DNA from: Candidatus Aphodovivens excrementavium
GTDB taxonomy: Bacteria; Actinomycetota; Coriobacteriia; Coriobacteriales; Eggerthellaceae
DNA length: 64,000 nt
NCBI GenBank assembly: GCA_018715935.1
Contig: DVKR01000030.1
Location: forward strand, 1 to 64,000
Reading direction: 5' to 3'
Numbering within the stretch: the first letter of the stretch is position 1; every line of letters starts with the position of its first letter. The notes under the pieces are model-generated. The model made no database searches, was not told the origin of the DNA, and saw only the letters and a program-made list of their open reading frames with translations. A program made the position numbers and the translations under genes. Below are positions 12,480 to 14,007 of this stretch, piece by piece.

Positions 12480-13178
12480 CTATTCGCTTCCAAGCGCCTG
12501 CATGCGCGCAGACTCCGCCGCCGCCTGAACGGCGCGCAAGGCGCATGCGGGATCCTCTGCCGCAAACACCGCGTTCCCGCACACCAAAACATCGGCGCCT
12601 TCACGAGCGACCTTCGGAGCGGTTGCCTCGCCAATGCCGCCATCCACCTGAATGAGAGGCGAGGCGCCCATCGCACGCGCGAGCGAAACCACCTCCGCCA
12701 CGCGGCCTTCGCTCCCTTCGATATAGCTCTGGCCGGAAAAACCCGGCTCCACGCTCATGATAAGCACCATATCGACATCGCCCAAAACGGGAAGCAGGGT
12801 CTGCACCGGGGTCTTCGGTTTGAGGCTCACGGCAGCCTTGCAGCCCGCTTCATGAATCATGCGAACTGCCTGCACCAGCGCATCGCCGTAGAGAACCTCA
12901 GCATGCACCGTCAGCGAAGAAGCACCCGCCTGCGCAAACCATGGAATCTGATCGAGCGGGTTCGACACCATCAGATGAACGTCGAGCGGAAGGCTCGTTG
13001 CCTTTGCCAGCTGCTTCACCAGCGGCACGCCCATCGACAGGTTTGGAACGAAATGCCCGTCCATTACGTCAACATGCACATACCCCGCACCAGCCCGCTC
13101 GATACAGGCGATGTCGTTTCCCATCGACAAGAAATCCGCCGAAAGGATGGACGGGGCAATTTTCACCGGTTGGTACAT
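12480..13178 (-). CDS. rpe: Ribulose-phosphate 3-epimerase
   Basis: Interconverts ribulose 5-phosphate and xylulose 5-phosphate in the pentose phosphate pathway. About 232 residues of TIM-barrel sequence. Family motifs are IAPSILSADF, HVDVMDGHFVPNLS, DVHLMV, MSVEPGFSGQSYI and QVDGGI. I chose ATG 13178 (MYQPVK), preceded by GAAAGGG; an ATG two codons upstream is also possible. A minus-strand TAGAAT (13261-13266) is a candidate -10. Confidence 0.95.
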   Translation of the reverse strand: MYQPVKIAPSILSADFLSMGNDIACIERAGAGYVHVDVMDGHFVPNLSMGVPLVKQLAKATSLPLDVHLMVSNPLDQIPWFAQAGASSLTVHAEVLYGDALVQAVRMIHEAGCKAAVSLKPKTPVQTLLPVLGDVDMVLIMSVEPGFSGQSYIEGSEGRVAEVVSLARAMGASPLIQVDGGIGEATAPKVAREGADVLVCGNAVFAAEDPACALRAVQAAAESARMQALGSE

Positions 13179-13433
13179 GAGCATCCCTTTCGCGCGACGC
13201 CAGCGCAACGCGCTCGCTGCGCACTTTGCCGCTACTCGTTTCCACCGTTTTCCTCACATCATTCTAACGCAACACGTTCGTAGAGGCAGCGCAAGGATGG
13301 CGCGATCGCTACGGCTTGCTACGTATGCAAGACTGTTTATTGAACCCCCTGGCAAAAGCCGCCGCCCAGGTAAAGCGCGAGCCTCTTGTCCGGCGCAGTG
13401 CCCGTCCAGCACCTCGCGCAAAAGATCATGGCG

Positions 13434-13439: not shown

Positions 13440-13470
13440 GAGAGCGATCCCTAGCAGGAAGAAGGTCGTC

Positions 13471-14007
13471 ATGAGCCAGCCTTCGCATTCTCCTCAACGC
13501 GCACAGCAGCAAGCTCGCGGCGCTTCGTCGAACGGCCTTTACTACCCCTATCGCACGCCCTACGGAACGCTTACCATCCGCGTAGAGCAAGGCAGTGTCA
13601 CCAACATTGCGCTGGGAGACGTCTCGTTCGAAGGCAAAAAGAGGCCAACCGAGCTCGCCAGCACCACCGCAACGCAAATCCAAGAGTATCTCGCAGGAAA
13701 GCGGCAAAGCTTCAGCGTGCCCTTCGCGCCGCAGGGGAGCCCCTTTCAGCAAAGCGTCTGGCGCGCCGTCTCTCAAATTCCCTATGGGCAGACGCGCACC
13801 TGCGCGGATATCGCATCCTCCATACAGAGGCCCGACAGCTTTAGGGCGGTGGGCTCGGCAGTCCGCCACAACCCTTTAGTCATGGTCATCCCCGCGCACC
13901 GCGTTGTCGATACCGCCGGAAAGCCGCTTGGCAGCGGTAGAGAAGCCAGGGTCAAAGGAGCGCTGTTGCGCCTTGAACAAAAGACGCTTCGTGGAGCCGA
14001 GGGCTAA
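13471..14007 (+). CDS. Alkyltransferase-like protein: Ogt/AGT fold with Cys-to-Ala at the active site
   Basis: 178-residue protein with the two-domain layout of O6-alkylguanine-DNA alkyltransferase. The N-terminal Ogt-like domain (about residues 20-90) starts YYPYRTPYGTL. The DNA-binding domain contains FQQSVWRAVSQIPYGQTRT, with the flipping Tyr, and RAVGSAVRHNP, with the Arg finger. The active-site PCHR motif reads PAHR (residues 141-144; codons CCC GCG CAC CGC), so the alkyl-accepting Cys is missing. Alkyltransferase-like (ATL) proteins also lack this Cys, bind O6-alkylguanine and recruit nucleotide excision repair, but most are single-domain. It is therefore unlikely to be a self-inactivating methyltransferase. 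Start chosen at the ATG after AGGAAGAAGG. Confidence 0.85.
   Translation: MSQPSHSPQRAQQQARGASSNGLYYPYRTPYGTLTIRVEQGSVTNIALGDVSFEGKKRPTELASTTATQIQEYLAGKRQSFSVPFAPQGSPFQQSVWRAVSQIPYGQTRTCADIASSIQRPDSFRAVGSAVRHNPLVMVIPAHRVVDTAGKPLGSGREARVKGALLRLEQKTLRGAEG

Follow-up and report, generated by a model that had tools for sequence, protein, structure and literature searches.

Our analysis suggests that one gene in the window, i.e. the whole 64,000-nucleotide stretch of Candidatus Aphodovivens excrementavium DNA that was analysed, is a vertically inherited ogt of the Eggerthellaceae that has become catalytically dead and is still under selection, and that its product most likely serves as a non-catalytic DNA-binding protein. 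We give this reading a probability of about 55%. The loss of the acceptor Cys in nearly all of the clade and of the base-flipping Tyr in all of it, the retention of the gene, its dN/dS values and the presence of another, Cys-bearing AGT in 41 of 42 genomes together point to a family-wide and apparently catalytically dead Ogt.

A two-domain Ogt homologue with PAHR in place of PCHR

The source genome has a size of 2.08 Mb and is 98.95% complete. The likely start of the gene is the ATG at 13471, with the Shine-Dalgarno-like AGGAAGAAGG just upstream (13456-13465), and its stop codon ends at 14007. All residue numbers follow the translation P0001, which begins at an alternative ATG (13438) and has 11 additional residues. 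The features of the locus are:

12480..13208, minus strand: rpe (ribulose-phosphate 3-epimerase), divergent neighbour that adjoins the orthologue in most loci
13471..14007, plus strand: coding sequence of the Cys-less two-domain Ogt homologue, 178 amino acids from the ATG at 13471 (open frame, Pfam domains)
13546..13728, plus strand: N-terminal ribonuclease-like Ogt domain PF02870, residues 37-97 (Pfam, over the cut-off)
13741..13980, plus strand: C-terminal DNA-binding/alkyltransferase domain PF01035, residues 102-181 (Pfam, over the cut-off)
13801..13803, plus strand: Cys122 (TGC), which replaces the base-flipping Tyr known as Y114 in the human protein and Y25 in Atl1 (alignment)
13843..13845, plus strand: Arg136, the arginine finger, human R128 and Atl1 R39 (alignment)
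13891..13902, plus strand: PAHR replacing PCHR, with GCG at 13894-13896 for Ala153, human C145 (codons, alignment)
13933..13935, plus strand: Ser166 at the human Tyr158 position of the active-site loop (alignment)
13975..13977, plus strand: Glu180, human E172, kept in 64/64 clade members (alignment)

The original prediction had read the codons CCC GCG CAC CGC at 13891-13902 as PAHR in a protein that keeps the Ogt N-terminal domain, and we confirmed both points: the codons read inside the open frame, and PF02870 is over the Pfam cut-off. The NCBIfam model TIGR00589 is also over its cut-off, and labels the protein a methylated-DNA cysteine methyltransferase. PAHR is found as well in Candidatus Aphodovivens avistercoris (L005/L069), the second genome of the genus, which makes a sequencing error very unlikely and, taken together with the 64-member clade described below, leads us to reject both such an error and an isolated mutant as explanations.

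AlphaFold models of 45 orthologues have the Ogt fold with a mean pLDDT of 87 and a disordered N-terminal tail, and the model of the window protein is confident from about residue 31. The best solved structural match is the M. tuberculosis Ogt (4wxc; Z 20.8, 2.4 A, 157 residues), followed by archaeal and human AGTs, while Atl1 matches in the C-terminal domain only (Z 11.4, 84 residues). The window protein is like the Ogts (M. tuberculosis Ogt, 4bhb/4wxc, and human MGMT) in both domains and in the fold.

Active-site residues lost and kept

The sequences of human MGMT and S. pombe Atl1 were checked against the PDB letter by letter and then aligned with the orthologues. The flipping Tyr had been thought to be retained in the motif IPYGQTR, which proved wrong: Y116 of this motif aligns with human F108 and Atl1 Y19, the true position is that of Cys122, and Tyr is absent there from all 64 members of the clade. 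The arginine finger, on the other hand, had been placed correctly (R136 = human R128 = Atl1 R39). The Tyr at Y114/Y25 supports base flipping and is common to AGTs and ATLs (PMC10779285), and according to simulations it is also active in proton transfer (PMC9515978).

We compared the residues of the 64 Tyr-less clade members with those of 43 Cys/Tyr orthologues. At the Tyr114 position none of the 64 has Tyr or Phe, versus one or the other in 43/43, and Tyr158 is missing from all 64, versus an almost always aromatic residue in the Cys/Tyr orthologues. K165 is found in 7/64 (lost in 57/64) versus 43/43, and N137 in 41/64 versus 43/43; the window protein retains both (Lys and Asn), unlike many clade members. 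R128 is present in 61/64 versus 42/43, and the Tyr-less clade keeps H146 in 63/64, R147 in 64/64, E172 in 64/64 and W100 in 63/64. The human R135 position carries R or K in 49/64 of the Tyr-less sequences versus N in 36/43 of the Cys orthologues, which is compatible with a retained DNA contact. The mean side-chain volume is down by about 95 cubic angstroms at position 114 and 75 at position 158, and this would be compatible with a widened pocket, the alignment of the loop being less certain. The window protein has the arginine finger, the His and Arg of PxHR and E172 in common with Ogt and MGMT, but differs from them by the absence of the acceptor Cys, the flipping Tyr and Tyr158, and its GYxGG-type active-site loop is replaced or shortened (GSGRE).

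The window protein contains no Cys other than Cys122, and in the orthologue L069 from the same genus the flipping-Tyr position is likewise Cys, which could mean that in this genus a Cys lining the pocket takes the alkyl group in place of the lost acceptor. However only 6/64 clade members have Cys at the Tyr114 position, with no wider conservation. Structures of AGTs have the alkyl group directed at C145, not Y114, and we regard such relocated chemistry as extremely improbable.

One clade at one chromosomal site

We scanned the named genomes using a single pattern located in the N-terminal domain, and hence the scan was blind to the Cys. It gave 80 loci, nearly all with the label Eggerthellaceae or unclassified Coriobacteriia/Coriobacteriaceae, and the residues at the Cys position are C (35), T (12), D (11), A (9), S (5), V (4), I (2), G (1) and L (1). 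A Paraeggerthella orthologue has PDHR, and a Slackia orthologue bears the Cys. An order-wide draw of 197 genomes gave strong matches in 46 members of the window's family and in a single genome outside it. Nearly all Eggerthellaceae have an orthologue next to rpe, at one and the same place in the chromosome. Cys-bearing and Cys-less genes share this site, with rpe and a cysteine desulfurase adjoining and gpsA-plsY-der often near, so they are orthologues and not paralogues. The locus partners were also considered as a functional clue, and are uninformative since the neighbours are identical for both forms.

In a tree of 110 rows, the Tyr-less sequences form a single clade of 64 (support 99/94), of which 61 are without the acceptor Cys and 3 have it; several rows have long branches and the fine placement is unsure. 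The phylogeny thus does not show an isolated recent mutant, and the independent loss of the Cys in a true Ogt lineage, as the original prediction had suggested, is borne out by one Eggerthellaceae Ogt clade at a conserved syntenic site. Trees and synteny indicate that the window gene descends vertically from orthologues at this locus that bear the Cys, and the nesting of the clade among Cys-bearing Ogts implies an origin separate from the ATLs.

The acceptor-Cys site of the clade has drifted, with T, D, A, S, V, I, L and G as the replacements and never Trp. The changes on the tree number 1 for the Tyr loss, 4 for the Cys and 22 for the full residue set at the Cys site. The tree prefers several changes for the Cys, but the AU test does not reject a scenario with only one loss (p = 0.21). 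Three members, L074 (Adlercreutzia faecimuris), L083 and L133, have PCHR but neither the flipping Tyr nor a loop of the GYxGG type, and are possible intermediates; they suggest that the Tyr and the active-site loop were perhaps lost before the Cys, with a regain of the Cys as another possibility. Outside the Tyr-less clade, L019 (G020:C1, about 805266-805706) has PSHR and keeps the flipping Tyr, apparently through an independent Cys-to-Ser loss.

We calculated NG86 dN/dS on hand-picked close pairs since YN00 was saturated for most. The values are 0.05-0.31 (median 0.15) for 19 close Cys-less pairs, and the median is 0.10 for 12 Cys pairs with one identical pair left out; NG86 is crude in GC-rich codons, and what counts is the contrast with a dN/dS of 1. 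The Cys-less gene is under purifying selection, slightly weaker than in its Cys relatives.

Of the 50 genomes that are at least 90% complete, 48 have the orthologue (with PDHR in G082), 33 have the Ada-cluster-type Ogt and 36 have the short AGT. The orthologue is Cys-less in 42 of these genomes, and 41 of the 42 also encode a Cys-bearing AGT, which is either an Ogt of the Ada-cluster type or the short single-domain protein with PCHRVVFKDG; G059 is the one that does not. The window's genome has two further AGT genes on contig C2, both PCHR and about 0.6 kb apart, which answers the question raised by the original prediction of whether a Cys-bearing form exists elsewhere in the genome. The pair adjoins a gene that, by sequence reading, resembles an AraC-type/AlkA protein. 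Two short AGT relatives differ from this pattern: the single-domain L170 (G071:C30:11837-13205) has PYHR for PCHR and adjoins a Cys-bearing Ogt, and L223 (G109:C4:77811-78940) has a PCHR region that does not align to the profile, perhaps owing to an insertion.

With other AGTs covering repair, the gene could be redundant and slowly drifting to loss. The redundant Cys AGT in 41/42 genomes, the drifting catalytic site, the absence of the gene from 2/50 genomes and further losses in the divergent members L024, L030 and L244 are in line with this. The Cys-less gene also evolves somewhat faster than its Cys-bearing orthologues, and some divergent or small-genome members lose more, e.g. R128 has become Thr in G059 and the motif is PDYR in G009; these observations fit slow decay and count against a dead but selected DNA-binding protein. 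We nevertheless consider decay improbable given the low dN/dS of all 19 pairs, the invariance of R147 and E172 across a deep clade, and an orthologue that is found in more of the near-complete genomes than either of the other two AGTs.

Possible function and meaning for the Eggerthellaceae

A functional two-domain ATL, handing O6-alkylguanine to nucleotide excision repair, was the proposal of the original prediction; such a protein would bind O6-alkylguanine and recruit UvrA/UvrC. The ATLs (S. pombe Atl1, E. coli YbaZ/Atl and T. thermophilus TTHA1564) are likewise without the acceptor Cys and keep the arginine finger and the His and Arg of PxHR; E172 is kept too in the window protein, and its genome encodes a canonical UvrA (G000:C25:486-3296). 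Besides this UvrA, the genome has another UvrA-like protein that is divergent, in a frame of 968 residues at G000:C9:3319-5844 (L246-L248). The Cys has also been removed from a two-domain Ogt in engineered archaeal proteins (SsOGT C119A, StoMGMT C120S and Y91F/C120S), and SsOGT C119A still binds O6-methylguanine DNA in crystals (PMC4605297), but these mutants are laboratory-made, their flipping position is still aromatic and their active-site loop is complete.

The differences from the ATLs are substantial. ATLs are without the N-terminal domain, whereas the window protein has PF02870; they keep the flipping Tyr (Atl1 Y25), which is Cys122 here and missing throughout the clade; and most of them have Trp at the Cys position, whereas residue 153 is small or branched in the window clade. 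As judged from its sequence, the window protein is a two-domain, Tyr-less and Cys-less Ogt descendant that fails two ATL hallmarks. With the flipping Tyr absent, the case for a hand-over of O6-alkylguanine to NER is weaker than had been assumed. An ATL-like route via UvrA is possible, though its main structural argument is gone with the Tyr, and on balance we find a functional ATL rather unlikely. We found no report of ATLs in Coriobacteriia in the open-access literature that we searched.

The reading that we prefer is a non-catalytic DNA-binding protein. The base-flipping Tyr (human Y114) was lost in the ancestor of the clade. Nearly all members have also lost the acceptor Cys, whose site drifts; Tyr158 is gone, and so in most members is Lys165. 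Purifying selection has retained the N-terminal domain and, in the C-terminal one, the helix-turn-helix, the arginine finger, Glu172 and both His and Arg of PxHR. Such a protein should still dock in the DNA minor groove, should be incapable of alkyl transfer, and probably could not flip O6-methylguanine in the normal manner. Its most likely job would be the probing or marking of DNA, possibly at distorted or adducted bases that fit a widened pocket, with direct repair left to the Cys-bearing AGTs elsewhere in the genome; it is perhaps a lesion-sensing DNA-binding protein. Neither the clade nor its loci showed a newly conserved residue or a partner gene that hints at a specific new function. 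We tentatively propose that this is an undescribed AGT-derived clade whose members may bind DNA but neither flip nor repair O6-alkylguanine and whose pocket, widened by the change of Tyr114 and Tyr158 to small residues, could make them sensors of other or bulkier lesions, or DNA-binding regulators, in gut Eggerthellaceae.

Database models label the gene a cysteine methyltransferase (TIGR00589), and the repair capacity of the Eggerthellaceae, which include human gut members such as Gordonibacter, Paraeggerthella and Adlercreutzia, may therefore be misread. The family also offers a natural series of about 60 apparently dead Ogts beside living orthologues at the same locus, plus the three Tyr-less forms with Cys. 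It may thus serve as a testable system for the passage from a suicide repair enzyme to a non-catalytic DNA-binding protein, and for the question of whether an ATL-like function can evolve anew.
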